A stretch of DNA of 44,069 nucleotides, taken from positions 48,058 through 92,126 of the forward strand of contig PKVY01000137.1 of the NCBI GenBank assembly GCA_003131625.1, in the 5' to 3' direction. A program made the translations under genes and the position numbers. Position 1 is the stretch's first letter. Each line of letters starts with the position of its first letter. Source of the DNA: Acidobacterium sp. GTDB lineage: Bacteria; Acidobacteriota; Terriglobia; Terriglobales; Acidobacteriaceae. Shown one piece after another: positions 12,254-43,400 of the stretch. Below the pieces are notes generated by a model, which saw only the letters and a list, made by a program, of their open reading frames with translations, made no database searches and was not told the DNA's origin.

Positions 12254-12307
12254 CCCTAAACTCAAATCCCTGTTTTCTAATCCCTAAACTCTAATCCCTA
12301 ATCCCTG
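12254..12307 (-). repeat. Heptanucleotide array, CCCTAAA-type
   Basis: Seven full seven-base units plus a partial one on the plus strand: CCCTAAA, CTCAAAT, CCCTGTT, TTCTAAT, CCCTAAA, CTCTAAT, CCCTAAT, CCCTG. In the sense of the gene ending at 12314 the strand is G-rich (GGGATTA-like) and begins 6 bases after its stop codon. The last 33 bases (12275-12307) are identical to 43368-43400. Confidence 0.9.
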
Positions 12308-12313
12308 CAGTTC

Positions 12314-13300
12314 TCACTGCACCGTCAGCGCCAGACACACCGCTCCCGAGCAGCTTGTATCGGACGAAGTCGCGTACGTGATCGCCGTGCCATCCGTGGA
12401 ATACGCGGAGATGACCACCGTGTAGGTTCCCGCAGCGGTTCCAAAGTTCGGCGACGGCTGGTAATTCAGATATCTGAACCGCGCGCTACAGGCGCTCAAT
12501 CCCAGCGTGCCGGCGGCCAGCAGCATTACCAGGCCCAGTGCCCGAAGCGCTCCGAGGTTCCTCCGCCGGATCGCTCCCACTCCAATCAGCGCCAGAATGC
12601 CCGGAATCACCACCCCATACACCGCGCCCGATCGTCCCAGCCGAGCCTCATTCCCGCCTACACCCGACTCCGCCGTCGTCGTGATCTGCATCGCGCTGAT
12701 GCTCGATCCGCTCGCTGGCGGCGTGACCACAACCGGGTTGAAATTGCAGCTCGAGGCGAGGGGCACACCCGAGCACGATAGGTTCACCTGCTCCGAAAAA
12801 CCGTTTTGCGAAGTCACCGTTAGGTTCACGGTTCCGAATTGGCCCGGTGTCAGCGACAACGACGACGGAGCGGCCGTGACCGTAAATCCCGGCAGCCCGC
12901 TGCTATCCGCGGAGACACCGGCGCTGGCCGCCGACCCGGCGAACGCAGCATCGCCGTGATAAACAGCCGTTACCGTCTTCGCCCACTGCGGCGCATTGTT
13001 CACGTTCAGCGTCGCTGAGCCATCTTTGACGAAGACCGAGCCCAGCGACCCCTTCGCCGTCTCGAAGCTCACCGATCCTTCGGAAACCGGTGCTCCACCG
13101 GCGTCTGCCACCTTCGCCGTGAATGACAGCGCGCCGTCACTCTTCTGCACCGAGACCTGGGTGCGCGTAGTCACCTGCGCTTGTCCTTGAGCGACGGCGC
13201 TAAGAATGGAAAGGCAGGTCAGCAGTCCGCAACAGAGGGTCAGCCGAGGGGCTATGTGCTTCCAGAACAGCGAAATCATTCGTGAGGAACTCTCTGACAT
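12314..13300 (-). CDS. Secreted Ig-like repeat protein with C-terminal membrane helices
   Basis: About 328 residues from ATG 13300; ATG 13279 (starting MISLFWKHIAPRLTLCCGLL) is an equally good choice, and the frame is open to 13447. The signal peptide ends near AVAQGQAQ. A bacterial Ig-like domain follows (SFTAKVADAGGAPVSEGSVSF, ATLNVNNAP, VTAVYHGDAAFAGSAA), a type common in acidobacterial surface proteins. A second beta-rich domain (SLSLTPGQFGTVNLTVTSQNGF) comes next, then a hydrophobic helix with a basic stop (YGVVIPGILALIGVGAIRRR) and another (LGLVMLLAAGTLGLSAC). The last 60 residues form a further beta domain ending SCSGAVCLALTVQ. Probably exported and membrane-anchored. Confidence 0.75.
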   Translation of the reverse strand: MSESSSRMISLFWKHIAPRLTLCCGLLTCLSILSAVAQGQAQVTTRTQVSVQKSDGALSFTAKVADAGGAPVSEGSVSFETAKGSLGSVFVKDGSATLNVNNAPQWAKTVTAVYHGDAAFAGSAASAGVSADSSGLPGFTVTAAPSSLSLTPGQFGTVNLTVTSQNGFSEQVNLSCSGVPLASSCNFNPVVVTPPASGSSISAMQITTTAESGVGGNEARLGRSGAVYGVVIPGILALIGVGAIRRRNLGALRALGLVMLLAAGTLGLSACSARFRYLNYQPSPNFGTAAGTYTVVISAYSTDGTAITYATSSDTSCSGAVCLALTVQ

Positions 13301-13495
13301 CAAACGTCTGCGCCACCATCGTTCCGCCTCGGCCCGTCCTGCCTGCCGAAAGGAATCCTGGCTCTGCGCTGGAAAACTCATTGTATCTGACCGGCAGCGC
13401 CCCCGGCACGTGAGCAGCCCCGGCATTCCCGCCGCGCTCCCTGCCATCTGGAGTTACGATCTTTAGTTGCCCATTCGCAATTTCCCGAGGTCCTC

Positions 13496-14713
13496 ATGAC
13501 CACTTCGCTCTCCGCGCGCCCCCAGCTCCAGTACCTCACCGCCCAGCTCGACGAGCTGAAGCAGAAGGGCACGCACTTCCGCCTGCGCGTCCTCGACGAC
13601 GTGCAGGCCCCGGTCTGCACCTACGACGGCCGCCGCGTCATCAATCTCGCCTCCAACAACTACCTCGGCCTGTGCAATCACCCAAAGCTGCGCGAGGCCG
13701 CCATTCAGGCCATCCGCGACTACGGCGTCGGCTCCGGCGCCGTCCGCACCATCGCCGGCACTATGAAAATCCACATGGAACTGGAAGAAAAAATCGCCAG
13801 CTTCAAGAATGTTGAAGCCTGCGTTGTCTTCCAAAGTGGATTCACCGCCAACGCCGGCACCGTCTCCGCCATCCTCGGCAAAGAAGACTTCATCGTCTCC
13901 GACGAGCTCAACCACGCCTCCATCATCGACGGTGCCCGCCTCTCCCGCGCGAAGATCAAGGTCTTTCGCCACAAAGACGTCACCCATGCCGAAGAGCTGC
14001 TCCGCGAAATTCAGAACGAGCCCGGCCGCAAACTGCTCATCACTGACGGCGTCTTCTCCATGGATGGCGACATCGGCCCCGTCGACAAGCTCGCCGATCT
14101 AGCCGAGAAATACGGCGCCATCATGATGGTCGACGACGCCCACGCCTCAGGCGTGCTGGGCCGCAACGGCCGCGGCACTGTCGACCACTTCCACTGCCAC
14201 GGCCGCGTCGATATCCAGGTTGGCACGCTCTCCAAAGCCATCGGCGCTATCGGCGGTTACGTCTGCGGCTCCAAAGACCTCATCGACTTCCTCTACCACC
14301 GCGCCCGCCCCATCCTCTTCTCCACCTCGCATCCGCCCTCGGTCACGGCCACCTGCATCGCCGCCTTTGATCTGCTGGAATCCGAACCCGAGCGCATCGA
14401 TCGCCTTTGGGAAAATACCCGCTACTTCAAGTCCGAACTCGGCCGTCTGGGCTTCAACATCGGCGGCGTCAATACCCCGGCGAGCGAAACCCCGATCACG
14501 CCCATCATCATCGGCGACGGCCGCCAGACCATGGATTTCTCGCGCGCCCTCTTCGAAGCGGGCGTCCTCGGCACCGGCATCGCCTTCCCGACGGTCCCCG
14601 AAGGCAAAGCCCGCATCCGCACCATCATGACCAGCGAGCACACCCGCGAGCAGCTCGATCAGGCCCTCGAAATCCTTGGGAAAACCGCGAAACCGTTGGG
14701 GATTCTGGGATAG
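13496..14713 (+). CDS. kbl: Glycine C-acetyltransferase / AONS-family PLP enzyme
   Basis: 405 residues, alpha-oxoamine synthase family. The most likely reaction is glycine plus acetyl-CoA to 2-amino-3-oxobutyrate in threonine/glycine metabolism. Visible signatures: NLASNNYLGLCNHP, GSGAVRTIAGT, the PLP-stacking His in DELNHASIIDG, DDAHASGVLGRNGRGT, and the Schiff-base Lys K247 in GTLSKAIGAIGGY. Length and the PILFSTSHPPS segment fit Kbl better than BioF, but no tdh or biotin gene is adjacent. A serine palmitoyltransferase-like role in sphingolipid synthesis cannot be excluded in this phylum. The 3' end (GGGGATT-CTGGGATAG) loosely resembles the heptamer arrays seen elsewhere. Confidence 0.85.
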   Translation: MTTSLSARPQLQYLTAQLDELKQKGTHFRLRVLDDVQAPVCTYDGRRVINLASNNYLGLCNHPKLREAAIQAIRDYGVGSGAVRTIAGTMKIHMELEEKIASFKNVEACVVFQSGFTANAGTVSAILGKEDFIVSDELNHASIIDGARLSRAKIKVFRHKDVTHAEELLREIQNEPGRKLLITDGVFSMDGDIGPVDKLADLAEKYGAIMMVDDAHASGVLGRNGRGTVDHFHCHGRVDIQVGTLSKAIGAIGGYVCGSKDLIDFLYHRARPILFSTSHPPSVTATCIAAFDLLESEPERIDRLWENTRYFKSELGRLGFNIGGVNTPASETPITPIIIGDGRQTMDFSRALFEAGVLGTGIAFPTVPEGKARIRTIMTSEHTREQLDQALEILGKTAKPLGILG

Positions 14714-14718
14714 CAACC

Positions 14719-14994
14719 GTGCGAATCAACAACCCAGCCCATCCTGGTGAAATCCTGCGGGAGCACATCGGGACCATGCCCGTAACGAAATTTGCCGATC
14801 ATCTCGGTGTCTCCCGTGTAACCCTGTCGCGCCTGCTGAACGGAACCTCGGGAGTGTCAGCGGAAATGGCCCTGAAGCTCTCCGAAGCTCTGGAAACCAC
14901 GCTGGAACTCTGGCTGAACCTGCAAATCCAGTACGACCTGTGGCAGGCGTCGATAACGAAACGTAAGAAAGTCGCGCGCCTGGCCGCTGCCTGA
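14719..14994 (+). CDS. Orphan HigA-family HTH antitoxin
   Basis: 91 residues from GTG 14719, five bases after the kbl stop. It matches the HigA family closely: NPAHPGEILREHIG, the XRE helix-turn-helix KFADHLGVSRVTLSRLLNGTSGVS, then MALKLSEALETTLELWLNLQIQYDLW. HigA is normally preceded by the HigB toxin gene; here kbl occupies that position and no HigB-like frame lies within 300 bases on either side. It may be a surviving antitoxin, or a regulator recruited after loss of the toxin. Confidence 0.85.
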   Translation: MRINNPAHPGEILREHIGTMPVTKFADHLGVSRVTLSRLLNGTSGVSAEMALKLSEALETTLELWLNLQIQYDLWQASITKRKKVARLAAA

Positions 14995-15023
14995 GAGGGC
15001 CCCGGTGCATTGCCGCGCCGCTA

Positions 15024-15236
15024 TCAGTGAAACAGGCTGCTGAAGATGATGAGCCCGAGCCCGATCATCGTCACCTCGTGATGGCCGGTGATCGCGCCGC
15101 CGCAAACCAGCAGGACCACGCCGAGAGCAAACAGGAGATGGGAATCCGAATCGCACTCCTTTTCGATCGCCGCCTGCGCCTGATTTGGGGGGACGGTGTT
15201 GGGGGCGAGGGCCGCGTTGGGGAATGTGTTGTTCAT
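15024..15236 (-). CDS. Small membrane protein, 70 aa
   Basis: ATG 15236 is preceded by AGGAGG at five-base spacing, one of the strongest ribosome-binding sites in the window, so this short frame is real. Residues 1-30 are polar (NTVPPNQAQAAIEKECDSDS); then two membrane helices separated by a short turn: LLFALGVVLLVCGGAITG and VTMIGLGLIIFSSLFH at the very end. No family recognised. It is convergent with higA and divergent from the trp cluster. Confidence 0.7.
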   Translation of the reverse strand: MNNTFPNAALAPNTVPPNQAQAAIEKECDSDSHLLFALGVVLLVCGGAITGHHEVTMIGLGLIIFSSLFH

Positions 15237-15382
15237 AAAGCCTCCTGACAAAACCAGCATCGCCCGAAGGCTCCCCTTCCCGGCAGTGCCCTTCGTCAGC
15301 AATCGAGCATGACAAATGTCAGCCGGCGCCGCGCGTCGCGGAGGCATTCCTGGCTTCGAGAGAAGCCCCCCCGCCTCTATAC

Positions 15383-16234
15383 TTGAACCAGAGGACCACA
15401 CGCCTGCATCCTTTTGGCCAGCGTCTTGACCCGATTCTCGCGGAAACGCGCGCCGAAGTGGCCCGCCGCCGCGAGCGCGTCCCCCTGCGCGAACTCGAGA
15501 AGCTGGCCGAGCAACACACGCCTCGCGGATTCGCCCGCGCCCTCCGCGAAGCCGCCGCAAAAGGCCCCGCGATCATCGCCGAGTTGAAGAAGGCCTCGCC
15601 CTCGAAAGGCGTCATCCGTCCCGACTTCGATCCCCAATCCCTCGCAGTCGATCTCGATCGCGCCGGTGCCGCCGCGCTCTCCGTCCTTACCGACGAGCCC
15701 TTTTTCCAGGGCAGCCTCCAGAACCTCGAAATCGCCTCCGCCGCCACCAAAATCCCCTGCCTTCGCAAAGACTTCATCGTCGACGAGTACCAGATCGCCG
15801 AAGCCCGCGCCCATCGCGCTGACGCCATCCTCCTTATCGCGGGCGCGCTCGGCTACGGCTTCCTTTACTACTTCACCGTCATCGCCCATAAATACGGGCT
15901 CGATGTTCTCTGCGAAGTCCACACCACCGAAGAGGCAAAGCTGGTCGAGGACATTGGCTGCGACGCTTATGGCGTCAACAACCGCGACCTGCAAACCTTC
16001 GAGGTTCGCCTCGACACTTCCCTGGAACTCGCCGAGAAGCTTCCGCCCAACGCCGTACGCGTCGCCGAGAGCGGCATTCACACAGCCGCCGATATCCAAA
16101 CCCTGCGCAGCGCAGGCTTCGACGCCTTCCTCATCGGCGAATCGCTCATGCGCCACCCGAGCCCCGGAGCAGCACTCGAAGACTTGCTCAAGGCCGCCAA
16201 CGCAGCACCCGAGCCAACCGCACAGCACACCTAA
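15383..16234 (+). CDS. trpC: Indole-3-glycerol-phosphate synthase
   Basis: About 283 residues, converts carboxyphenylaminodeoxyribulose phosphate to indole-glycerol phosphate. Family motifs: AELKKASPSKGVIRPDFDP with the catalytic Lys, LRKDFIVDEYQI with the second Lys, GVNNRDLQTFEV, and ESGIHTAADI with GFDAFLIGESLM for phosphate binding. The start is uncertain: TTG 15383 has no good ribosome-binding site, whereas AGAGGA (15390-15395) lies 8 bases before an in-frame CTG at 15404 that would give LHPFGQRLDPIL, the usual family beginning. First gene of the tryptophan/aromatic cluster; trpE, trpG and trpD are not in the window. Confidence 0.95.
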   Translation: MNQRTTRLHPFGQRLDPILAETRAEVARRRERVPLRELEKLAEQHTPRGFARALREAAAKGPAIIAELKKASPSKGVIRPDFDPQSLAVDLDRAGAAALSVLTDEPFFQGSLQNLEIASAATKIPCLRKDFIVDEYQIAEARAHRADAILLIAGALGYGFLYYFTVIAHKYGLDVLCEVHTTEEAKLVEDIGCDAYGVNNRDLQTFEVRLDTSLELAEKLPPNAVRVAESGIHTAADIQTLRSAGFDAFLIGESLMRHPSPGAALEDLLKAANAAPEPTAQHT

Positions 16235-16239
16235 AAACC

Positions 16240-16962
16240 ATGTGGATCAAAATCTGCGGCAACACCAATCTCGATGATGTGCGGATGGCCGCCGATGCTG
16301 GTGCGGACGCCGTCGGCTTCGTCTTCGCTTCCAGTCCGCGCCGTGTCACCGCGGGTCACATCGCAGCCATAATGCCCGATCTGCCTGCCGATCTAACAAA
16401 AATCGGCGTCTTTGACACTCAGAATTTCGATGAGATTGCACTCGCTCTCCGGTCTGCGGGACTGCACGGGGTTCAGCTTCACGGAGAACTCGATTTTTCG
16501 CTCGCGGAAAAACTGCGCAACCAGTTCGATCCCGGCTTCTTTCTCATCCAAACCCTGCATTGGGACCTGAACAGCGATCCCGCCCGCGCCGAGGAGCGGC
16601 TCCGCAACGAGCTCCGCGCCATCGCCCGGCATCGTGACATCGATGCGGTCCTGCTGGATACCAGAACGTCAACCGCATCCGGCGGAACGGGCAGAACCCT
16701 GGACTGGGCGCGCGCCAAAGACGTTCTCTCCGCTGAAGCCGGAAAACTGCGCATCATTCTCGCTGGCGGCCTGTATCCGGGCAATATCCGCGAAGCCATC
16801 CTCACCCTCCGCCCCTGGGGTGTCGACGTCTCCAGCGGCGTCGAATCCTCACCTGGCAAAAAGCATCCTGAATTTCTCCACGACTTCGTCCGCGCGGCCC
16901 GCCTCGCCTTCCTCGAAATCGAGCCGCCCCCCATGCTCCCCACTGCTGTGGGTCCGGTGTAA
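16240..16962 (+). CDS. trpF: Phosphoribosylanthranilate isomerase
   Basis: 240 residues, TIM barrel, catalyses the Amadori rearrangement before TrpC. The general base C6 is in KICGNTN and the general acid D140 is in VLLDTRT. Also seen: GADAVGFVFASSPRRVT, GVQLHG, LAGGLYPGNI and GVDVSSGVESSPGKK for phosphate binding. It starts five bases after trpC. The C-terminal 20 residues (LEIEPPPMLPTAVGPV) are an unconserved tail. Confidence 0.97.
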   Translation: MWIKICGNTNLDDVRMAADAGADAVGFVFASSPRRVTAGHIAAIMPDLPADLTKIGVFDTQNFDEIALALRSAGLHGVQLHGELDFSLAEKLRNQFDPGFFLIQTLHWDLNSDPARAEERLRNELRAIARHRDIDAVLLDTRTSTASGGTGRTLDWARAKDVLSAEAGKLRIILAGGLYPGNIREAILTLRPWGVDVSSGVESSPGKKHPEFLHDFVRAARLAFLEIEPPPMLPTAVGPV

Positions 16963-16971
16963 GGTGGAATC

Positions 16972-18174
16972 ATGGCAGCTACCGTGACCAGTCGCGTCGC
17001 AGGGCGCTTCGGCCCCTACGGCGGCCGCTACGTTCCGGAGACCCTCGTCGCCGCGCTCGACGAGCTGGAGCACGCGTACGCCGAGGCCCAGACCGATCCC
17101 GATTTCCACCTGAAACTCGACTCGCTGTTGCGCGACTACGCCGGCCGCCCCACCCCTCTTTATTTCGCCCCCCGCCTCACAGAATCGCTCGGCGGCGCAA
17201 AAATCTATCTCAAGCGCGAAGACCTCCTCCACACCGGCGCACACAAAATCAATAACTGCCTCGGTCAGGCGCTCCTTGCTGTGCGCATGGGCAAAAAACG
17301 CATCATCGCGGAAACCGGCGCGGGCCAGCACGGCGTCGCCACCGCCACCGTCTGCGCGCTCTTCGGCCTCGACTGCGTCGTCTACATGGGCGAAGAAGAC
17401 ATGCGCCGCCAGGAGCTCAACGTCTACCGCATGCGCATGCTCGGCGCGGAGGTCCGCGGCGTCTCCTCCGGCTCGCGCACCCTCAAAGACGCCATCAACG
17501 AAGCCATGCGCGACTGGGTCACCAACGTCCGCACCACCCACTACCTCCTCGGCAGCGTCCTCGGCGCGCACCCGTACCCCACCATGGTCCGGGATTTTCA
17601 TCGCGTCATCGGCCGCGAAGCCCGAGTCCAGATCCTCGAGAAAGAAAATCGCCTGCCCACTGCCATCATCGCCTGCGTCGGCGGCGGCTCCAACGCAATC
17701 GGCGCGTTCTACGAATTCATCCCCGACAAAGACGTCCGCCTCATCGGTGTGGAAGCCGGAGGCCGTGGCTCCGCGCTTGGCGAGCATGCGGCGCGTTTTA
17801 GCGGAGGATCTCCAGGCGTCCTTCAGGGCACCTATTCGTACGTCCTCCAGGATGACAACGGCCAGATCGCCCTCACCCACTCCGTCTCCGCCGGTCTCGA
17901 CTACGCCTCCATCGGCCCCGAACACGCCGCGCTCCACGACTCCGGCCGCGCCGAATATACCTCCGCCACCGACACCGAAGCTCTCGACGCCACCCTGCGC
18001 CTCGCGCGCACTGAGGGCATCATCCCCGCGCTCGAAAGCGCCCACGCCGTCGCCGAATGCCTCCGCCTCGCGCCGAGCCTCACCCCGCGCGACATCCTGC
18101 TCGTCAACATCTCCGGCCGCGGCGACAAGGACATGGGCATCCTCGCCCGCGAACTCCATCTATCGGGAGCCTAG
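16972..18174 (+). CDS. trpB: Tryptophan synthase beta chain
   Basis: 400 residues. Condenses indole with serine using PLP. K92 in [17 protein letters not shown] is the Schiff-base lysine; [15 protein letters not shown] contains the catalytic Glu, and [15 protein letters not shown] binds the PLP phosphate. [13 protein letters not shown] at the N-terminus is typical of TrpB1, the type that pairs with TrpA. It starts nine bases after trpF, and trpA follows six bases after its stop. Confidence 0.98.
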
Positions 18175-18180
18175 CCAGCG

Positions 18181-18972
18181 ATGCCGATCCGTTTCGCCAG
18201 CAAACCCGGCCTCGTCGCCTACATCACCGTCGGCGACCCCGACCTCGCGACCACTCACAACATCGCGATCGCCGCAATTGACGCGGGCGCGGACGTCCTC
18301 GAACTCGGCGTCCCCTTCAGCGATCCACTCGCCGACGGCCCCGTCATCCAGCGCGCCAGCGAGCGCGCCGTGAAGAACGGCACCCGCCTCCACGACGTCC
18401 TCGCCCTCGCCGCCGCTCTGCGCCTCGAGCGCCCCCAGACCGGCCTCATCATCTTCACCTACTACAATCCCGTTCTCCGGTTCGGGCTCGAAAACTTCTG
18501 CGCCGCCGCGGAGCAAGCCGGCGTCGACGGCGTCCTCGTCACCGACATGATCGTCGAAGAAGCCGGCGACTACCTCGCAGCTCTCCATCGCCATCGTCTC
18601 GCGCCCATCTTTCTCGCCGCACCCACCAGTCCCGACGACCGCCTCGAACGCATCTGCGCCGCGTCGCAAGGATTCGTCTACGCCATCTCGCGCTTAGGCA
18701 TCACCGGCACGCGCGCCTCGCTCGAATCCGATGCCGAACAGCTCGTCCGCCGCCTGCGCCGCTTTACCAAACTTCCCATCGCCGTCGGCTTCGGCATCTC
18801 GAATCCCGAACAGTTCGCCGCGGTTGGTGAATTTGCCGACGCCGCCGCCATCGGCAGCGCGCTGGTCGCCACCATCGAGCAGGCCGGACCCAAAGACGCG
18901 CCCAGTTCCATCGCCCGATTTATTTCGGGCTTGCGCGGCGGAATCCGTGAGCCTGCCGTGCCTGCCCGCTGA
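18181..18972 (+). CDS. trpA: Tryptophan synthase alpha chain
   Basis: 263 residues, TIM barrel, cleaves indole-3-glycerol phosphate to indole and glyceraldehyde-3-phosphate and channels indole to TrpB. Catalytic E41 lies in [18 protein letters not shown] and D52 follows in the same loop. [13 protein letters not shown] and [10 protein letters not shown] form the phosphate site. It ends 83 bases before aroQ, the largest gap in the cluster, which could hold a secondary promoter; I see no clear one. Confidence 0.97.
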
Positions 18973-19055
18973 AGAATTCTCCTCTTCGTATACGGTTGTA
19001 GTTGCGGATTTCTCCATGCCCCGGCGCTCCATCGCCCGGGTGGATAGGGAAGACC

Positions 19056-19376
19056 ATGGACTTAGAAACCTTCCGGCGCAAAATCGACGAACTCGATCGG
19101 CGCATCGTCGCCCTTATCAGCGAACGCGCCGCTGCCGCCCAGGAAATCGGCCGTCTGAAACGCGAGACCGACTTGCCCGTCTACGAGCCCAATCGCGAGC
19201 GCGTCATCTTCGACAACGTGCGCAGTCACAATCCTGGCCCGCTGCCCGACATCGAGCTCGTTCATATCTACGAGCGCATCGTCGACGTGATGCGAGCCCT
19301 GCAGCGCAACGAGCTCGCCTCTCGCCCGAACCCGCCCGCATCCGGCGCGCAGATCCAGACAGGAAAAGAAAAATGA
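19056..19376 (+). CDS. aroQ: Chorismate mutase, AroQ class
   Basis: 106 residues, all-helical. Converts chorismate to prephenate at the entry to Phe/Tyr synthesis. [20 protein letters not shown], then [20 protein letters not shown], carries the conserved Arg/Lys/Glu set of the AroQ monofunctional enzymes. ATG 19056 gives the standard N-terminus ([13 protein letters not shown]). The stop overlaps the next start as ATGA, so it is translationally coupled to the DAHP synthase gene. The last 20 residues are a polar tail. Confidence 0.93.
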
Positions 19377-20389
19377 TTGTTGCTATGCAGGATCGCGCGA
19401 CCGAAGAAGAGATCCAGGCCGTTGTCGAGCGCATGATGGAAATCGGCTTCAATGTCCACCGCACCACTGGGACCGTCCAGACCATCCTCGCCGGCGTCGG
19501 CACCCCCGGCGTTTTCGAGCACCAGGAATTCGAGGTCCTCGCCGGAGTCGCGGAAGTCATCCGCATCTCGTCGCCCTATAAACTCGCCGGACGCAGCTTC
19601 CGCCCCGAGGGCACCATCGTCCGCTTTCCCAACGGCGTCAGCATCGGCGGCGACGAAGTCGTCGTCATGGCCGGACCCTGCTCCGTCGAAAGCCGCGAGC
19701 AGATTTTCTCCAGCGCCAAAATCGTCAAAGATGCGGGCGCGAAATTTCTGCGCGGCGGCGCCTTCAAACCCCGCAGCTCGCCCTACTCCTTCCAGGGCCT
19801 CGGCCTCGATGCGCTCAAGCTCCTCCGCGAAGCCGGCGACGCCCACGGCTTGCTCGTCGTCAGCGAGGTCATGGAGATCTCCCAGATCGAACCGATGATG
19901 CCGTACGTCGACCTCTTCCAGGTCGGCGCGCGCAACATGCAGAACTTCAACCTCCTCCGCGAGCTCGGCGCAGTCCGCCGCCCTGTCCTGCTCAAGCGCG
20001 GCATCGCCGCCACCATCGAAGAGTTGCTGCTCTCCGCCGAATACCTCCTCGCCGGCGGCAACTACGACGTCATCCTCTGCGAGCGCGGCATTCGCACCTT
20101 CGAAACCTACACCCGCAACACCATGGATATCTCCGCCATCCCCGTCGTGAAAACGCTCTCGCACCTGCCCATCGTCGGCGATCCCTCCCATGGCACCGGC
20201 CGTCGCGACAAGGTTCCCGCCATGGCGCGCGCCACCGTCGCCGCAGGCGGCGACGGCCTCCTCATCGAAGTCCACCCCAACCCCGACAAAGCGCTTTCCG
20301 ACGGCGCGCAGTCGCTTTTCCCCGAGCAGTTCGCCGAGCTCATGGGCTCGCTGCGCGTGATCGCCTCCGCTGTGGAGCGCACGATTTGA
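19373..20389 (+). CDS. aroF: 3-deoxy-7-phosphoheptulonate synthase, type I-beta with N-terminal ferredoxin-like domain
   Basis: 338 residues, condenses PEP with erythrose-4-phosphate, the first committed step of the shikimate pathway. Residues 1-70 ([20 protein letters not shown], then [16 protein letters not shown]) form the ferredoxin-like regulatory domain known from Thermotoga-type enzymes; the barrel follows with [38 protein letters not shown] and [13 protein letters not shown]. The FL domain implies feedback control by Tyr and/or Phe, which fits its place between aroQ and tyrA. Four-base overlaps with both neighbours. Confidence 0.96.
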
Positions 20390-21309
20390 AGCCCCACAGT
20401 GAAGTCCTGGCGCGAAGCGCCCATCGCCTGGACGGCCAGTCCCGCATCGCGATCCTCGGCACCGGCCTCATCGGCGCATCCGTTGGCCTCGCCTTGCGCT
20501 CCCACGGTTTCTCCGGATCCATCGCCGGCTGGGACCCCAACCCCCAGCAACTCCACGCCGCTCTCCGTCGCGAAGCCATCACCGTCTCAGCCGACGATCC
20601 ACTCACCGCTGCTGCGGAAGCAAACGTCATCCTCCTCGGCGGTCCCGTCTTCACCGTCCTGGAATGGCTCGACCGACTCGCCCCGCTCCTGCGCGAAGAC
20701 CAGCTCGTCACCGACGTGGGCAGCGTCAAAGGCGCGATTTGTGCCCGTGCCCGTGACAAATACAACGCGCCAGGCCAGCCTGGCTTCCTCCCTGGCCATC
20801 CCATGGCGGGCAAAGAAGTCAGCGGCGCCGACCATGCCGACAGTGCGCTCTTCGACGGCGCAGTCTGGCTCTTCGCGGAATGCTCCGACAGCAACATGAA
20901 TCCCGCCGCTCACGTCCTCGCCAACGAATGGCGGGCCTGGGTCGGCCGCTTCGGCTCCCGCGTCCTCGACATCGACCCCGACCGCCATGACGTTCTCTGC
21001 GCCTGGATCAGCCATCTGCCGCAATTCGTCTCCACTGCCATGTGCGCGCTGCTCGAAGACGAATTCGCCGCCAACGCCGACCTGCTCCCCATCGGCGGCC
21101 GCGCCCTGCGCGAGATGACCCGTCTCGGGGAAAGCCCCTTTTCCATGTGGCGCGATATCGCCCACACCAACTCCGAAGCCATCGCCCAAACCCTCCACGC
21201 CCTCGAACAGCGCCTCGCCCACATCCGCGAAAATCTCAAAACCCCCGAACTCCGCGACGAATTCGACCGTGCCAACCGCTTCCGCCTCCGCGATTCACAG
21301 AAACCCTGA
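20386..21309 (+). CDS. tyrA: Prephenate dehydrogenase
   Basis: 307 residues; oxidative decarboxylation of prephenate to hydroxyphenylpyruvate with NAD(P). The Rossmann motif [19 protein letters not shown] is at about 22-40. [27 protein letters not shown] and the helical C-terminal half ([29 protein letters not shown]) are typical. The start is TTG 20386, overlapping the aroF stop as TTGA; no better in-frame start lies near. It is the last gene of the cluster. No pheA is present, so phenylalanine needs a gene outside the window. Confidence 0.94.
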
Positions 21310-21421
21310 GCTTGGCCGGCTCCTGTACAAAACGCTCCGCAGCTGAAATGGCCTGCGATGGCCAACTTGTAACAACACAGGTACACTTGCCATTCGCAAA
21401 TTTTTCATAGTCGGAGGGTCT

Positions 21422-24763: not shown

Positions 24764-24788
24764 AGCGAAAGTATTCTCGAAACCCACG

Positions 24789-24819
24789 GGCCGGAGCCAT
24801 CCCTCCGGCCATTTCTTTT
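24789..24819 (+). terminator. Intrinsic terminator after the tricorn protease gene
   Basis: GGCCGGAG (24789-24796) pairs with CTCCGGCC (24803-24810) around CCATCC, followed by ATTTCTTTT. It separates the protease from the GH2 gene, which therefore probably has its own promoter in 24820-24882. Confidence 0.85.
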
Positions 24820-24882
24820 GCGTGCCGCATTGCGGGAACCCCCTGCAGCGCGAGTCGCCCATCGCCCGACAGGCGGATTAAG

Positions 24883-26709: not shown

Positions 26710-26720
26710 TCCAACTTCCA

Positions 26721-26766
26721 CCGCCGGGTGCCCAACGCCTGCCCGTAATTGGCAGATGCGGGTGCC
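26721..26766. repeat. GGGTGCCC-type dispersed hairpin element
   Basis: GGGTGCCC (26726-26733) and GGGTGCC (26760-26766) flank a small TGCC/GGCA stem. The same GGTGCCCC core opens the hairpin at 39456-39483. Such short hairpins are common between genes in this phylum; here it lies between convergent genes. Confidence 0.45.
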
Positions 26767-26790
26767 TGTACCCTGCACCCTGTACCCCGT
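26766..26790 (-). repeat. Heptanucleotide array, TACCCTG-type
   Basis: On the plus strand the array reads CTG, TACCCTG, CACCCTG, TACCCCG and T. Unlike the CCCTAA-type arrays the unit is TRCCCYG, but the seven-base period and the placement are the same: it ends exactly at the stop codon of the gene at 26791. The mRNA-sense strand is G-rich, with GGGG and two GGG tracts spaced four bases apart. Confidence 0.8.
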
Positions 26791-27987
26791 CTAAGCTCCC
26801 AGTCTTCCCAGCCCAATCCCGATCACATACGTCGCTACACCTTCCGCCGCGCCCACCAGGGTCATCTCCAGTCCGCTGGCCCACCACGACCGCACCGTGA
26901 TCAGCGACTTCGCCGCGCCCACCGCAAAATGCGCAATCAGCGAGACAATCGCCGACAAGATCACCGCCGGATATCCGCTCATGAAGAAAAATGGCATGAT
27001 CGGGATGAACGCCCCCACCGCCGTCGACAGCGCTCCCGACCACGCCGAGACGAAAGGCTTGCTCAGCCCCTCCTCCGTCATCTTCAGCCGCTCGGCCGCC
27101 AGCGCGCGCGTGAATTGAGCCGGTGACTCGGCCAGATGCGCCACCACATGGTCCGCATCGTCGCGCGGAATCCCCTTCACCTGGTAGTACAGCGAAAGCA
27201 GCTCCTGCGCCTCCGGCCCGTTCATCTCGATGGCCTCACGCTCCCGCGCCAGTTCCGCTTCATAAATCTCCCGCTCGCTCTTCGCCGCCAGATACGCGCC
27301 CGATCCCATCGACAACGCGCTCGCAACCATCCCCGCAATCCCCGACAGCAACACCCAGTGGCTGTTGCCCAGCGTCGCGCCCGACACTCCCGACACGATC
27401 CCGAAAATCGCGCCCAACCCGTCATTCACACCGTAGATCGCGTCGCCAATCCACCCCGCCGTCTGTCTCCCCGAGCGATTGCGCCGCGTCAGCAGTTCGT
27501 CCAGCTCCTTGCGCGCCATCTCCGAGCTCACCGGCATCTTTGGATAACGATGCCGGATCAGCTCGCTCAGTTCGCGATAGTGCTCCTGCTCGTCCGCGAT
27601 CACCTGGTTCAGAATGGCGACGCTCGGCTCATCGCCCAGTTCTTTCAGCTGCTGCCCATACCGCGCAATATCGCGGCTCTCGTCGATCTCCAGCCGCCGC
27701 AGCGCCATCTGCGGTCCGCCCAGTCGGTTCACCAGCGTGTCCGCATCCCCCGTCGGCTTGCCGTCGTACTTCGGCAACTCTGCGCCCAGCTCGCGAATGC
27801 GCTTCGCCCACATCGCCGCGTGCTGTGCCTCCGCCTCCGCAATATGTCGCAGCGTCTTGCTGCGGACAGCATCGTCGTCACGCTCCGCCAGCGTGTTGTA
27901 GGTGTGGAAGCCGCGCATCTCCGCCTGCCAGTTCTCGCGCAGCGCTTCCAGCACTTTCTGTTCTTTTTGCGACGAAGTTTGCGTCAT
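26791..27987 (-). CDS. MbfA-like protein: ferritin-like domain fused to VIT1/CCC1 transporter
   Basis: 398 residues. Residues 10-145 form a rubrerythrin-type four-helix diiron domain with E23, E53xxH56 (EAEAQHA), E100/E103 and E133xxH136 (DEQEHYREL). Residues 170-398 form a VIT1/CCC1 membrane domain with about five helices (IYGVNDGLGAIFGIVSGVSGA, LSMGSGAYLAAKSERE, PIMPFFFMSGYPAVILSAIV). This domain pair is that of membrane-bound ferritin A, which exports iron under excess iron or peroxide. Its ATG overlaps the upstream stop as ATGA. The DtxR-family gene 5 kb upstream on the same strand is a plausible regulator. Confidence 0.9.
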   Translation of the reverse strand: MTQTSSQKEQKVLEALRENWQAEMRGFHTYNTLAERDDDAVRSKTLRHIAEAEAQHAAMWAKRIRELGAELPKYDGKPTGDADTLVNRLGGPQMALRRLEIDESRDIARYGQQLKELGDEPSVAILNQVIADEQEHYRELSELIRHRYPKMPVSSEMARKELDELLTRRNRSGRQTAGWIGDAIYGVNDGLGAIFGIVSGVSGATLGNSHWVLLSGIAGMVASALSMGSGAYLAAKSEREIYEAELAREREAIEMNGPEAQELLSLYYQVKGIPRDDADHVVAHLAESPAQFTRALAAERLKMTEEGLSKPFVSAWSGALSTAVGAFIPIMPFFFMSGYPAVILSAIVSLIAHFAVGAAKSLITVRSWWASGLEMTLVGAAEGVATYVIGIGLGRLGA

Positions 27988-28514: not shown

Positions 28515-28535
28515 CACCCCGCCTGACAACGTCAT

Positions 28536-28570
28536 CTCTAAACCCTAACCCCTATCCCCTAAACCCTGGT
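28536..28570 (-). repeat. Heptanucleotide array with four G-tracts in the mRNA sense
   Basis: Five seven-base units on the plus strand: CTCTAAA, CCCTAAC, CCCTATC, CCCTAAA, CCCTGGT. In the sense of the response regulator gene, whose stop is at 28572, this gives GGG, GGGG, GGGG and GGG tracts separated by three- or four-base loops, a standard G-quadruplex pattern. It starts two bases after the stop codon. Confidence 0.9.
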
Positions 28571-28571
28571 T

Positions 28572-29198
28572 TTAGTCCAGATGCACAATCCCCCGCTGCA
28601 GCGCCGTGGTCGCCGCCTGCGTGCGGTCTTCCACACCCATCTTGCTCAACAGGCTGTTCACGTGCGTCTTGACCGTCGCTTCCGAGATAAAAAGCGCGTT
28701 CCCAATATCCTTATTGCTCTTGCCCGCCACAATCAGATGCAGCACCTCCAGCTCGCGCGCCGTCAGCGACGCGCCGCCCATCCGCTCCGCCAGCTTCTCC
28801 GCCACACGTGATGGAATCCGCGATTTCCCTGCATGCACGACCCGCACCGCATCCGTCAGCTCCGTCAGATCCATCCCCTTCAGCAGATATCCCTTCGCGC
28901 CCGCCTGCATCGCACGATAGATATCCTCATCGCCATCGAAAGTCGTCAGCACAATAATCCGGGCCGCCGGAAATTCTCCGCGAATCTTCCCGATGGCCTC
29001 CACGCCGTTCATCTTCGGCAACCGCAGGTCCATCAGCGTCACGTCCGGCCGGTGCTTCCTGAACAGATCCACCGCCTGCTCGCCGTCGGAGGCCTCCGCC
29101 ACCACCGCGAACCCGGGCACGGTCTTCAGCAAAGCCGCCAGCCCCTGGCGCACGATGTGATGATCGTCGACGATCAGGATGTTAATCGTATCTGCCAT
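28572..29198 (-). CDS. NarL/FixJ-family response regulator
   Basis: 208 residues. Receiver domain 1-120 with the acidic pair DD11-12, phosphoacceptor D57 (VTLMDLRLP), T in VLTTFDGD and K in GYLLKG; LuxR-type HTH 143-208 (LTARELEVLHLIVAGKSNKDIGNALFISEATVKTHV). It starts two bases after the kinase stop and is its cognate partner. Targets unknown. Confidence 0.96.
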   Translation of the reverse strand: MADTINILIVDDHHIVRQGLAALLKTVPGFAVVAEASDGEQAVDLFRKHRPDVTLMDLRLPKMNGVEAIGKIRGEFPAARIIVLTTFDGDEDIYRAMQAGAKGYLLKGMDLTELTDAVRVVHAGKSRIPSRVAEKLAERMGGASLTARELEVLHLIVAGKSNKDIGNALFISEATVKTHVNSLLSKMGVEDRTQAATTALQRGIVHLD

Positions 29199-29200
29199 AG

Positions 29201-38533: not shown

Positions 38534-38560
38534 GCACGGCGCCTGCGACCCTATCCCTCG

Positions 38561-39403
38561 ATGAGTCTTAAAGCCCGCATTGAAGCCGTCATTTACGCCG
38601 CCGAAGAGCCGGTAACTCTGGCTCAACTCGCCTCCCTCTTCCGCGAAGAAGCCCTGGCCAGCCGCCCTCCGGCCGATCCCGACCGTCCCGCCGAAACCCC
38701 CGGACCCGCGCTCGTAGAGGAATTGTCCGAACCCGCCGCGGACCTGCCCCCCGACGACGAGAAGAAAGCTGCACGCCAGCTGGATCGCGCGATCCGCGAC
38801 GAAATCCGCGCCCTCGTCGACGAACTCATCGCCGACTACAACACCCCCGATAGCGGTCTCGAAATTCGCGAAGTGGCCGGCGGCTTCCGCATCGGAACTC
38901 GCCCCGAAAACCACGACGCCGTCCGCGCCTTCGTCAAAACCCTTAAGCCGCCCCTCAAACTCTCCCTTCAGGCGCTCGAAACCCTCGCCGTCATCGCCTA
39001 CAAGCAGCCCGTCACCGCCCCCGAAATCGGCGAGATCCGCGGCGTCGATACCTCCGGCGTCCTCGGCTCCCTCATCGCCCGCAAGCTCATCACCACCGCC
39101 GGACGCAAGCAGGTCGTCGGCCGCCCCATCCTCTACAAAACCACCAAAGAATTTCTCCTCCGCTTCGGCCTCAAAGACGTCAGCGAGCTCCCCTCCATCG
39201 AAGAATTCGAGAAGATGGCCGCCGACCTCGCCGACTCTGACCTCGCCGAACCCGAGGAAGCGGGCGCCCTCGCAACCGAAGAAGAACTCCCCTTCGCGCA
39301 AAACGAGATCGCCGAAATGGAAGACACCGAATCGTCCGAAGATGACTTAGACGCCGACCCCGCACCCACCTCCGAGCACGACATCGCCGAGCAGCCAAAG
39401 TGA
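38561..39403 (+). CDS. scpB: Segregation and condensation protein B
   Basis: 280 residues. Two winged-helix domains: MSLKARIEAVIYAAEEPVTLAQLASLF at the start and LSLQALETLAVIAYKQPVTAPEIGEIRGVDTSGVLGSLIARKLI in the second, followed by GRPILYKTTKEFLLRFGL, all diagnostic. A 45-residue Ala/Pro/Glu-rich insertion (about 28-75) separates the first helices, and the last 70 residues are strongly acidic. The length exceeds the usual 180-220 because of these two low-complexity parts. Confidence 0.95.
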   Translation: MSLKARIEAVIYAAEEPVTLAQLASLFREEALASRPPADPDRPAETPGPALVEELSEPAADLPPDDEKKAARQLDRAIRDEIRALVDELIADYNTPDSGLEIREVAGGFRIGTRPENHDAVRAFVKTLKPPLKLSLQALETLAVIAYKQPVTAPEIGEIRGVDTSGVLGSLIARKLITTAGRKQVVGRPILYKTTKEFLLRFGLKDVSELPSIEEFEKMAADLADSDLAEPEEAGALATEEELPFAQNEIAEMEDTESSEDDLDADPAPTSEHDIAEQPK

Positions 39404-39455
39404 ATCGTTTTGTGTCAGCACACGACTTCACAGGGTGCGGGAGAAAAGCGGGTGC

Positions 39456-39483: not shown

Positions 39484-39517
39484 AATCGCGCGCAGCGCGC
39501 CGCTTTTTCCTGCGTGT

Positions 39518-40175
39518 CAGGGCACGACCTGCAGAGCTTCCGGCAAAGATCCACCGCCCCCCGGCAAGGTTCACCCCACAGCAAGAAGCTTAACCTCAAA
39601 CTGTGTGCTTTCGTAGAACTGAATTCCGGACCTCAACTCCTCAGTACCGTCTCTGAAACCAAAACGGGACGCCACCGGTGCCCCGCTCCCCCTTGGCAAA
39701 CTGGCCCCCGGCTCCAGGGCTCGACTTCGAGTCGGGCCGAAAACGACCAGACAACGTTACAGCTTACGGAAAAAAGCCCCCGCTCCACCCCGCCAGGTTC
39801 ACCCCACAGCAAGAAGCTTAGCCTCAAACCGTGTGCTGTCGTAGAACTGAATTCCGGGCCTCAACTCCTCAGTACTGTCTCTGAAACCAAAACGGGACCC
39901 CACCCGTGCCCCGCTCCGCCCTGGCAAACTGGCTTCAGGCTCCAGGGCTCGACTTCGAGTCGGGCCGAAAACGACCAAACAGTGCTGCAGCTTGCGGAAA
40001 AAAGCCCCCGCCCCACCCGGCAAGGTTCACCCCACAGCAAGAAGCTTAACCTCACACCCCGTGCTGTCGTACAACTGAATTCCGGACCTCAACTCCTCAG
40101 TACTGTCTCTGAACCAAAACGGGACGCCGCCCGTGCCCCGCTCCGCTTTGGCAAACTAGCCCCAGGCGCCAGCGC
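39518..40175. repeat. Tandem array of 228-bp repeats
   Basis: Units begin with AGGTTCACCCCACAGCAAG at 39567, 39795 and 40023, exactly 228 bases apart. Units 1 and 2 are full; unit 3 diverges after about 150 bases. A partial tail of the same unit precedes unit 1 (39518-39566). Within full units a nine-pair hairpin GGCTCGACT-TCG-AGTCGGGCC lies about 149 bases in, followed by GAAAACGACCA and CGGAAAAAAGCCCCC. Units differ by scattered substitutions, so the duplication is not recent. A diverged copy lies at 42629-42795. Confidence 0.92.
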
Positions 40176-40220
40176 ACGACTTGATTTAGCCTGCTCTGAG
40201 CGCAGCGCCGCAACCGGGGC

Positions 40221-40276: not shown

Positions 40277-40360
40277 ATGGGGTGGAGAAGGCGCGTAGTC
40301 GAATGGGTGCCGAAAACGACCAAATTCGATTTGGGGCGTTAGCCCCTGAGGGATAAACCC

Positions 40361-41314
40361 ATCGCGAACGATCCCGAACCCGAAGCATCTTCTCCTCAGC
40401 GTCTGCAAAAAATCATCGCCGCCGCCGGCATCGCCTCGCGCCGCAAGGCCGAAGAGCTCATCGTCTCCGGACGCGTCCAGGTCAACGGCCAAACCGTCAC
40501 CGAACTCGGCGCCAAAGCGGACCCCGCCCGCGACCACATTCGCGTCGACGGCAAGCTCCTCCATGGCCCCGAGCGCCCCCGCTACTACGTTCTCAACAAG
40601 CCGAAGGGCTACGTCACTACCGCCAGCGACCCCGAACATCGCCCCACCGTCACCGACTTCTTCAAAGGAGGCGAGCGCGTATTCCCCGTCGGCCGCCTCG
40701 ACTACTCGAGCGAAGGCCTCCTCCTCATGACCAACGACGGCGACCTCGCCAACGCCCTCACCCGCGCCGCCGCCCGCGTCGAGAAAACCTACCTCGTCAA
40801 AGTCAGCGGCAAGCCCTCTGACTCGGCGATCAACCAGCTCCGCCACGGCGTCATGATCGATCGCGGTACCCAAATCCGAAAGCCCGGTTCGACGCCCGCC
40901 CGCCGCAATGAGGGCCGCGTCATGACCGCCCCCGCCCGCATCCGGCTCCTGCGAGACGCCGACAATCCCTGGTACGAATTGATCCTCATCGAAGGCCGCA
41001 ATCGCGAAATCCGTAAGATGTTCGAGGAAATCGGCCACCACGTCGAAAAAATTCGCCGCGTCGGCTACGGCCCTTTGGTCCTCGACGTCGAACCCGGCCG
41101 CCATCGCGAGCTCAACCCCGAAGAGGTCGCCCAGCTCCGCCGCGCCGCCGAAGGCAAATCCGTCAAATCCTCCAGACCCGAAAAGCCCGCCCGCAATGCA
41201 CCCCGACCCAGCCGTACTCGCGCCACCCCTCCCTCGCGCCAGAACGACACCCCGAACTCGCCGCGACGAGCCGCTTCGAAGCGCCTTCGCTCCCCTCTCA
41301 GGCGGGGGCGATAA
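40361..41314 (+). CDS. rluB: 23S rRNA pseudouridine synthase RluB, no standard start codon
   Basis: About 317 residues. S4 domain at 15-70 (LQKIIAAAGIASRRKAEELI, VSGRVQVNGQTVTELG), then the RsuA/RluB catalytic domain: YYVLNKPKGYVTTASDP, VGRLDYSSEGLLLMTNDGDLA with catalytic D114, EGRNREIRKMFEEIGHHVEKIRRVGYGPL. The last 60 residues are a basic, Pro/Ser-rich tail. The in-frame stop upstream is TAG 40340; from there to ATG 40727, which lies inside the active-site region, no ATG, GTG or TTG occurs in frame. GAGGGA (40348-40353) sits seven bases before ATC 40361; CTG 40346 is the other candidate. Coordinates assume initiation at ATC 40361. Confidence 0.88.
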   Translation: MANDPEPEASSPQRLQKIIAAAGIASRRKAEELIVSGRVQVNGQTVTELGAKADPARDHIRVDGKLLHGPERPRYYVLNKPKGYVTTASDPEHRPTVTDFFKGGERVFPVGRLDYSSEGLLLMTNDGDLANALTRAAARVEKTYLVKVSGKPSDSAINQLRHGVMIDRGTQIRKPGSTPARRNEGRVMTAPARIRLLRDADNPWYELILIEGRNREIRKMFEEIGHHVEKIRRVGYGPLVLDVEPGRHRELNPEEVAQLRRAAEGKSVKSSRPEKPARNAPRPSRTRATPPSRQNDTPNSPRRAASKRLRSPLRRGR

Positions 41315-41320
41315 CCCGGC

Positions 41321-41731: not shown

Positions 41732-41740
41732 GGCGATCGG

Positions 41741-42025: not shown

Positions 42026-42049
42026 GGATATTACTCCGTAGGACTAAAT

Positions 42050-42077
42050 ATTATCGCTTTGTCGACCCATCCAGCAA
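42050..42077 (-). promoter_or_regulatory. Promoter of the CopG/PIN module
   Basis: On the minus strand TTGCTG (42077-42072) and GATAAT (42055-42050) are 16 bases apart. TAATAT occurs in the -10 region and again just before the start codon (about 42028-42033), possible half-sites for the antitoxin. Confidence 0.5.
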
Positions 42078-42122
42078 GCGTCCAGTTCGCCTTTGCTGTA
42101 TCTAATATGCAGAGAGGTTTCC

Positions 42123-42590: not shown

Positions 42591-42628
42591 CTAGAGGCTT
42601 CGCCTCCATTGCGCATCTTCCTGTTTAC

Positions 42629-42795
42629 CAGGGCGCGACCGTACAGGCCAGCACTTGAAGCCAGCCGACCCCCCACTGCCCTGCGGCCAGGTTCACCCCA
42701 CAGCAAGTAGCAAACGCCCTTGGCGCCCCGCCGTCAATAGCCTCGACTGCATGTTTCCACCCCAAAGTACCGCGGAGACCCAAATTGGAACCGGC
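42629..42795. repeat. Diverged copy of the 228-bp repeat
   Basis: AGGTTCACCCCACAGCAAG recurs at 42689 in the same orientation as the array at 39518-40175. AGTACCG follows 77 bases later (76 in the array units) and then GACCCAAATTGGAAC, matching GAAACCAAAACGGGAC. Upstream, AGGGCGCGACC (42629) matches the hairpin-side segment before each unit. The copy is therefore colinear but degenerate. It fills most of the gap between msrA and the membrane protein gene; GAGGC-TTC-GCCTC at 42596-42608 is a small hairpin after msrA without a T-run. Confidence 0.75.
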
Positions 42796-42813
42796 CTCAT
42801 CCGCTCCCTCGTC

Positions 42814-43284
42814 TCAAGAGGCAATTTCGCGCATCCTGTCCCGCCGAGTCAGAACCGCAATCGTCGCTCCGATGCAAAACAGCAGAGCCAGCACCCCGCT
42901 CACCCGCGACGCCAGGGTCACAGCCGCCCGCGCGTGCGGAACCCGCGTCAGCGGCAGCACCACGAAGTTCATGATCACGTAGACCATCGCCCCGTAGACC
43001 AGCCCAGACGCCACCGGTCGCCGAATCAAAACCCCCAACCGCCGGCTCGCCGCGTAAAAGACCGCAGTCCAGAACAACGCAATCGTGTAATGGATCGCCA
43101 CGCCCAGCGCCACCGACTCCATCCCCGCGCGGAACGCCCACGCCCCCGTCAGCCCGCTCGCGATGTACTGGAAGATTTGCACCGGCGTGATGTGCCGGAA
43201 GGCATTGAAGACCAGATTTTCTGTGATGTCCAGCGTCCCCGCGATCAACCCAATCCGCATCACGCTGCCAGTCGCACTCGCCAT
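42814..43284 (-). CDS. Conserved four-helix membrane protein, 156 aa
   Basis: Four predicted membrane helices: MRIGLIAGTLDITENLVFNAF (with polar residues), ALGVAIHYTIALFWTAVFYAAS, VASGLVYGAMVYVIMNFVVLPL and VSGVLALLFCIGATIAVL. The pattern LIAGTLDITENL with a conserved acidic pair, and RRPVASGLVYG, resembles membrane proteins that recur in Acidobacteriota; the role is unknown. No strong ribosome-binding site is seen for ATG 43284; ATG 43260 (MRIGLIAG) is an alternative. Confidence 0.75.
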   Translation of the reverse strand: MASATGSVMRIGLIAGTLDITENLVFNAFRHITPVQIFQYIASGLTGAWAFRAGMESVALGVAIHYTIALFWTAVFYAASRRLGVLIRRPVASGLVYGAMVYVIMNFVVLPLTRVPHARAAVTLASRVSGVLALLFCIGATIAVLTRRDRMREIAS

Positions 43285-43367
43285 CGCCGCATTCTACAAG
43301 CGCATCGGCGCAGCAGCCATGACCGGTTTACTCATCCACGGTCCTTCTAACCCGGCCGAGTCTGCTC

Positions 43368-43400
43368 TTCTAATCCCTAAACTCTAATCCCTAATCCCTG
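43368..43400 (-). repeat. Heptanucleotide array identical to 12275-12307
   Basis: TTCTAAT, CCCTAAA, CTCTAAT, CCCTAAT, CCCTG: 33 bases without one difference from the array near 12300. It overlaps the end of the adjacent minus-strand gene: the last codons AGG-GAT-TAG (Arg-Asp-stop) are part of the repeat. Confidence 0.92.

Follow-up and report, generated by a model that had tools for sequence, protein, structure and literature searches.

Heptanucleotide arrays at gene edges in an Acidobacterium genome and its relatives are mostly oriented outward from coding sequence

The DNA analyzed here, called the window below, is a stretch of 44,069 nucleotides (nt) from an Acidobacterium sp. genome (contig PKVY01000137.1, positions 48,058 to 92,126), and at the ends of several of its minus-strand genes lie short tandem arrays of degenerate seven-base units. 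An initial annotation had described four such arrays, each placed at the stop codon of a particular minus-strand gene, and all four are present, ending next to those stops or containing them; a fifth, absent from that annotation, lies at the window's end. The arrays and the genes that they accompany are the following, in window coordinates.

12254..12307, minus strand: heptad array 1, with AGGGATT, AGAGTTT, AGAAAAC and degenerate units in phase, its first AG 7 nt past the stop
12314..13279, minus strand: gene that anchors array 1 by its stop, with a Big_3_5 (Ig-like) domain
26766..26790, minus strand: heptad array 2, AGGGTGC/AGGGTAC, in a convergent gap
26791..27987, minus strand: gene that anchors array 2 by its stop, with rubrerythrin and VIT1 domains
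28536..28570, minus strand: heptad array 3, AGGGTTT/AGGGGAT/AGGGGTT, occupying a 36-nt gap except for one base
28572..29198, minus strand: gene that anchors array 3 by its stop, a response regulator with a GerE domain
43368..43400, minus strand: heptad array 4, identical to array 1 over 32 bases and spanning the stop TAG of its gene
43391..43996, minus strand: gene whose end falls within array 4, with a weak DUF4252 match under the curated cut-off
44033..44069, minus strand: heptad array 5, AGCCAGC units without GGG, extending beyond the window end and including two N bases in the assembly

Read on the gene strand, the first three arrays follow their stops as TGA GAACTGC|AGGGATTAGGGATTAGAGTTTAGGGATTAG (stop 12314), TAG ACGGGGTAC|AGGGTGCAGGGTACAGG (stop 26791), and TAA AACC|AGGGTTTAGGGGATAGGGGTTAGGGTTTAG (stop 28572). 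In array 4, the stop TAG at 43391 is itself the junction between units 1 and 2, and array 5, which reads TAA CTTC|AGCCAGCAGCCAGNNG... on the minus strand, begins 4 nt past the stop (contig position 92146) of the minus-strand gene that comes next, just outside the window. The units had been given as CCCTAA-like in three arrays and TACCCTG in one. The arrays stand, but that description of their units needs correction: the units are degenerate and differ between arrays, and array 1 includes AGAGTTT, AGAAAAC, and TGAGTTT as well. An autocorrelation scan blind to composition found five period-7 segments in the window (arrays 1 to 4 and 44033-44069) and zero to three segments at each other period from 4 to 12. 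All five arrays come after minus-strand stops, though 26 of the 40 called genes are on the plus strand, and their common orientation is that of the G-skewed strand of the contig (skew -0.20).

We extended the analysis to sampled stretches of the window's own genome (G000; 5.39 Mb, 148 contigs) and of genomes from two other genera of the same family (G006 and G066), fetching loci that were selected for AGGG arrays. In G000, the pattern AGGGNNTAGGGNNTAGGG has 66 matches compared with 18 for the pattern read backwards, and CAGGGNNCAGGGNNCAGGG has 164 compared with 0; the loci cover all listed matches of the former and, of about 100 listed among the 164 matches of the latter, those outside C85 and C108. 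For G006, about 100 of 103 matches were listed and fetched apart from C2:570 and C17; for G066, about 100 of 105 were listed, and the loci run up to C4:182061. Genes were called with a codon-pair model trained on long open reading frames of the fetched stretches, which gives approximate starts, and stops that are exact only where the call is right. Contig skew was likewise computed from fetched stretches only. We use d5 and d3 for the distances from the 5' and 3' ends of an array's G-rich strand to the gene behind and the gene ahead, respectively.

The fixed place at gene ends that had been proposed from the window extends beyond it and far exceeds chance. Among the 97 AGGG arrays of G000, 85 lie outside called genes, and 81 of these have both neighbors known. 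In 77 of the 81, d5 is shorter than d3, with medians of 7 nt behind and 99 nt ahead, and this is so in every kind of gap (convergent, 24/24; tandem sense, 29/31; tandem antisense, 15/17; divergent, 9/9). Specifically, median d5 is 4-5 nt in convergent and tandem-sense gaps, and 50 of the 81 are sense arrays no more than 12 nt past a stop, compared with 3.5% for random placement within the same gaps. Elsewhere in the family, d5 is the shorter distance in 54 of 62 arrays of G006 and in 23 of 26 of G066.

Arrays abut start codons too, with the G-rich strand antisense there, and therefore the polarity rule is outward from coding sequence, mostly at stops and sometimes at starts. Within 30 nt of a stop there are 51 sense and 5 antisense arrays in G000, and 36 and 3 in G006; within 30 nt of a start codon, G000 has 16 arrays whose G-rich strand is antisense and 6 whose G-rich strand is sense (p 0.052). 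The two ends of genes are shared unequally between unit types in G000, as TAGGG-type arrays are found at stops in 35/41 cases and at a start in 1/41, and CAGGG-type arrays in 16/40 and 15/40, respectively. When arrays were collected from G000 without regard to composition (n=135), exactly one end was no farther than 15 nt from a coding edge in 79 (66 at stops and 13 at starts), both ends were in 9, and neither was in 47. Start-anchored arrays are thus a minority (13/79 of those anchored), and their units are other than TAACTGA. By eye, Shine-Dalgarno-like sequence seems to be absent where a G000 array stands 5-10 nt ahead of a called start, and some arrays at 22-24 nt have such a sequence between themselves and the start.

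In the fetched stretches, the seven-base period predominates outside genes, where period-7 segments number 143 in G000, 69 in G006, and 28 in G066, and none of the other periods between 5 and 13 gives more than 8. At stops that lack an AGGG array and have at least 45 nt of room, a period-7 repeat occurs in 38 of 303 cases, compared with at most 3 for periods 5, 6, and 8-10; the corresponding counts are 18/366 before starts and 9/230 in mid-gap. Unit families include AGGTTAC, AGCGTTC, AGTGATC, AGCCGGT, CAGCTNN, and CAGTTCT. With stop-anchored arrays oriented by the gene edge alone, YAG is found on the outward strand in 58/66 and on the reverse strand in 8/66 in G000 (31/36 and 4/36 in G006; 16/16 and 1/16 in G066), and the same holds for those without GGG (20/21 and 6/21 in G000; 12/16 and 2/16 in G006). 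G-richness is not the rule, since families without GGG follow the same outward polarity.

In these genomes, the unit grammar is Y-AG-XX-NN, in which XX is near-fixed within an array and NN is variable, with the A and G fixed by the definition of a chain and, in GGG arrays, positions 3 and 4 fixed by the search patterns (and position 7 likewise in G000). Position 7 is almost always a pyrimidine, both in units from arrays without GGG (86 of 87) and in those from the GGG arrays of G006 and G066 (160 of 162). Variation within non-GGG arrays (n=23) is concentrated at position 5, where the minority fraction is 0.28 compared with 0.04-0.09 at positions 3, 4, 6, and 7, and in the GGG arrays of G006 and G066 it falls mainly at positions 5 and 6. 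An array appears typically to consist of around 4 units and a closing AG; the most frequent number of AGs is 5 in G000 (20/58) and G066 (10/16), and 4 or 5 in G006 (12/31 each), under patterns and a lag-7 scan that favor arrays of 3-4 units or more. G066 also has GGGCTCA arrays of 7-19 near-perfect units (L115, L116, L117, L123, L127, and L128); the GGGCTCA matches listed for this genome are confined to three contigs and are all plus-strand, which sets them apart from its shorter degenerate arrays.

The shared orientation of the window's arrays can be traced to strand composition, because in 90 of the 97 AGGG arrays of G000 the G-rich strand is the G-skewed strand of the contig, including 24/24 in convergent gaps. 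Gene strand is not supported as the source of that orientation, as genes barely follow the skew (326/617, or 53%) while arrays do. In G000, the sign of the skew varies by contig and is independent of gene strand: genes on the G-skewed strand (n=320) have a mean coding-strand skew of +0.183, and those on the opposite strand (n=297) one of -0.176. Median absolute GC skew per locus is 0.19 in this genome, 0.06 in G006, and 0.08 in G066. At G000 loci with a skew of at least 0.05, agreement is 79/84 for strongly G-rich arrays, 18/18 for intermediate ones, and 5/7 for balanced or C-rich ones; at loci below 0.05, the same classes give 2/4, 2/3, and 1/2. For G-rich arrays at loci with a skew of at least 0.05, there is no significant link in G006 (17/24, p 0.064) or G066 (6/15), and in a small sample from G034, 8 of 11 agree. 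The G-skewed strand is in general the leading strand. In DNA so skewed, composition alone would strongly favor one strand for G-rich arrays, and we therefore read the bias as strand-biased mutation and not as a signal. A same-strand pattern within a single window can thus stem from replication-linked skew. Because the direction shared by the window's arrays follows a strand composition set by replication, a simple role as mRNA-end signal is unlikely. The suggestion of a role specific to mRNA 3' ends is weakened by this link and by the 16 start-proximal antisense arrays that stand beside 51 stop-proximal sense ones.

Gaps that hold exactly two arrays are inward pairs in G006 (21/21) and G066 (11/11), and the partners belong to one XX family in 18/21 and 10/11 cases, compared with expected fractions of 0.45 and 0.52. 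In G000, two-array gaps are mixed (6/18 inward, 8 ++, 3 --, and 1 -+). These counts include three overlapping detections of self-complementary sequence, one in each genome, which in G006 and G066 are overlap artefacts. One gap in G066 has three arrays in the order - + -, and several compact gaps (79-98 nt) are nearly filled by an array pair.

Comparison with 11 congeners that have stretches matching window positions 11500-31000 bears on the history of the arrays (array 1 of G085 was left out). Heptads, defined by a lag-7 score of at least 10 of 14, a cut-off chosen after the scores had been seen, occur at the orthologous stops of the three array genes in 15 of 30 congener copies (5/9, 2/11, and 8/10); most congeners have no array at stop 26791. 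At the stops of 14 other genes, the count is 2 of 100, one of them an opposite-strand view of an array already counted, and many of these control genes are followed by very short gaps without room for an array. Among the congeners, the proteins keep the same ends at these three stops, and the rest of the gap changes while arrays recur there. At the stop orthologous to 12314 the unit is AGGGATT in G000, AGGGAAT in G081, and AGGCAAC in G087, and at that orthologous to 26791 it is AGGGTGC in G000 and AGCCTGT in G087; place, period, and polarity can therefore outlive the unit. Outside genes, the congener loci that were chosen by homology (19 loci, 137 kb) contain 6 arrays of period 7 and no array of period 5, 6, or 8-11, and with 2 outward-only and 1 reverse-only they are too few to speak to polarity. 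No clean pair of filled and empty sites was found among the sites compared.

Heptameric repeats are overrepresented in many bacteria and lack an accepted explanation. Cyanobacterial STRR are heptanucleotide tandem repeats. Two papers from 2015 have already described repeats of this kind. Rehm et al. 2015 (PMC4692102), whose introduction cites heptanucleotide repeats of Calothrix, report GGGNATC-type heptameric repeats in Xanthomonas and Nostoc that are intergenic and nearer to the 5' neighbor whatever its orientation, with an average spacing of 28 nt; at 0-50 bp, they follow stops when on the coding strand and precede starts when on the non-coding one. In their account, inward inverted pairs number 70 in Xcc and 75 in Xac, 83% of Xcc repeats keep their gene context in Xac, and Xanthomonas repeats have no leading or lagging preference. 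The acidobacterial arrays share with these the period of 7, the mostly intergenic location, the shorter d5 whatever the orientation of the neighbor, and inward inverted pairs, although the last make up only a third of two-array gaps in G000. They differ in their units (AGGGNNY and several non-G-rich families with YAG, as opposed to GGGAATC and GGGGA(C/T)T, which have no AG), in their tighter spacing (median 7 nt), and in a strand that follows GC skew in G000, though G006 and G066 have no significant preference.

MacGregor 2015 (PMC4679880) describes TAACTGA direct repeats in Beggiatoaceae, Cyanobacteria, and Bacteroidetes that are flush with start codons in the BOGUAY genome, one set just past a stop in reverse orientation in F. 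litoralis, and a sample from M. aeruginosa without a uniform orientation relative to starts (6 forward, 8 reverse, and 8 between stops). Read outward, TAACTGA is TCAGTTA, which by our own reading fits Y-AG-XX-NN. Unlike the acidobacterial arrays, these repeats are mostly at start codons and have one dominant unit, with related heptamers rare as repeats, and the mixed orientation in M. aeruginosa is at odds with a strict outward rule. Given that mixture, and the Xanthomonas and Nostoc units without AG, a strict outward rule cannot be called universal, as far as these accounts go, and the same applies to the YAG grammar. The outward rule links these two separate reports. Searches of the open-licence literature listed no paper on such arrays in Acidobacteria, nor on a link to the replication strand.

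We lean, with considerable reservation, toward the interpretation that the arrays are degenerate heptads of intergenic DNA shaped by DNA-level turnover and skew, and that they are by-products or weakly selected spacers and not a signal for mRNA 3' ends. Slippage in 7-nt steps, along with copying between arrays, would rewrite units in place, while selection against invasion of coding sequence, and against G-rich units before start codons, would set the edge and the polarity. If the G-skewed strand is taken as the leading strand, strand-biased mutation may remove C-rich copies there or prevent them. As a guess, a directional step of growth or copying could be what puts the 5' end of the repeat strand, and not its 3' end, at the gene.

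Several observations sit uneasily with turnover and skew as the explanation. Neither end lies within 15 nt of a coding edge in 47/135 arrays of G000, 22/65 of G006, and 9/27 of G066, and 12 of the 97 AGGG arrays of G000 are within called genes. Mutation and selection alone leave the avoidance of antisense arrays after stops (51 compared with 5, and 36 compared with 3) unaccounted for, and function is a possible reason why arrays recur at particular stops. If arrays grew from the edge, units should age away from it, and this was not seen: identity between adjacent units is roughly flat along G000 arrays, and stacked modules are equally regular near the edge and far from it (0.79 and 0.80, 12 stacks). 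Finally, C precedes the first AG in 47 of 58 stop-anchored G000 arrays, including 23 of 28 in which T predominates at that position of the inner units. This resembles the defined end of an element more than the outcome of free slippage; the preference is weaker in G006 (20/31) and G066 (8/16).

An alternative that we rate as improbable, yet worth keeping in view, is an RNA element, in which sense YAG heptads past a stop would serve the ending, protection, or processing of the mRNA, either as binding sites for a protein or through an effect on RNA polymerase, and start-anchored copies would do likewise for antisense RNA that exits the gene at its 5' end. The idea stays alive because of the tight spacing past stops in convergent and tandem-sense gaps, the recurrence of arrays at congener stops while the rest of the gap changes, and the finding of Rehm et al. 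(PMC4692102) that transcripts start or stop more often at G4 (G-quadruplex)-forming repeats than at control repeats, on either strand. Furthermore, in gaps of 45-100 nt, AGGG arrays on either strand lie by 19 of 50 convergent stops and 10 of 91 tandem stops, although heptads other than AGGG have no preference for convergent gaps. Such an element does not predict the start-anchored antisense copies or the link between strand and skew in G000, nor is there an association with terminators. An intrinsic-terminator association was rejected, since hairpins of that type (GC hairpin and T-run) are no more common after array-bearing stops in G000 (4/16 and 20/88 of other stops in convergent gaps; 6/24 and 33/198 in tandem gaps), and array-bearing and other stops do not differ in G006 or G066. 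Two related ideas were set aside by reasoning: back-up stop codons through TAG in three frames, as CAG families carry no TAG, and Rho loading by the inward C-rich strand, as the CAGCT and CAGTT families are not C-rich there.

It is rather doubtful that the arrays are small mobile elements inserted at gene edges and moved by a transposase in trans, even though the C that commonly precedes the first AG in G000, the 32 bp that are identical between arrays 1 and 4, and the inward pairs of one family would suit such an origin. Across 80 genomes, the number of array matches is uncorrelated with that of IS200/RAYT-type transposases (PF01797; Spearman -0.07, p 0.53); G066 has 1 and G035 has 0, but G059 has 42 with 3 array matches, and no target duplication was established. 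Movement of the kind known for REP sequences by RAYT (Y1_Tnp) is accordingly unsupported.

Poorer still are the prospects of a G-quadruplex element, in which the four G-tracts of an array fold as DNA or RNA and folding is the selected property. Arrays of the AGGG pattern hold at least 3 G-tracts, by choice of pattern, and often 4, and Rehm et al. (PMC4692102) showed that related repeats fold as G4 in vitro, but families without GGG obey the same rule, which already weakens the idea, G087 carries AGGCAAC and AGCCTGT arrays without GGG at two orthologous stops, and the fifth array of the window is AGCCAGC. G-quadruplex potential is thus not what is kept. Some chromosomes carry polar sequences such as KOPS (GGGNAGGG). 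A comparable orientation signal read by a translocase is very improbable here, for although 90/97 arrays of G000 lie on the G-skewed strand, base composition alone would produce such a bias for G-rich units, and neither G006 nor G066 has a significant strand preference.

Whether the arrays form part of something wider was addressed with AGCAGGGNNTAGGGNNTAGGGNNTAG (20 specified bases), which matches at least 119 stretches; among the matches listed (80 titles) are Acidobacteria, Cyanobacteria, Planctomycetes, Chloroflexi, Chryseobacterium, Gemmatimonadetes, and others, with Edaphobacter aggregans and Silvibacterium bohemicum as culturable relatives that bear arrays. At these loci, numbering at least 119, a same-strand frame of 150 codons or more ends between 26 nt inside the array and 60 nt before it (median 5 nt) for 57 of 122 matches, an opposite-strand frame of that kind lies on the far side for 9 of 122, and the rest have neither; for 80 loci among the matches listed, the counts are 36/83 and 7/83. 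Most cyanobacterial matches of this pattern are away from the stop of any long frame, and unanchored arrays make up 40/54, 37/51, and 11/24 at cyanobacterial loci. In anchored cyanobacterial arrays, the ratio of outward-only to reverse-only YAG is 7:0, 7:0, and 7:1, and it is 17:0 in other phyla pooled and 9:0 in other Acidobacteriota, all of these loci having been chosen for an AGGG array that is itself counted.

It is possible, if on balance unlikely, that the heptad arrays at gene edges belong to a single class of element found across bacteria, whose defining features are place, period, and polarity instead of sequence: a 7-nt unit (Y-AG-XX-NN in Acidobacteriaceae and several other phyla) repeated a few times, outward from coding sequence, with the unit rewritten and place, period, and polarity kept. 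The AG-free units of Xanthomonas and Nostoc speak against the sequence part of this proposal, and most of the cyanobacterial arrays inspected are unanchored. If true, the proposal would call for some dedicated factor or process able to sense a spacing of 7 nt at the edges of coding sequence. The outward rule, for its part, yields predictions on strand, on unit turnover, and on transcript ends. Apart from the heptads, the window has a tandem repeat at 39535-40182 with a 228-bp unit in 2.9 copies (88% matches), which lies between the called genes at 38561-39403 and 40727-41314.

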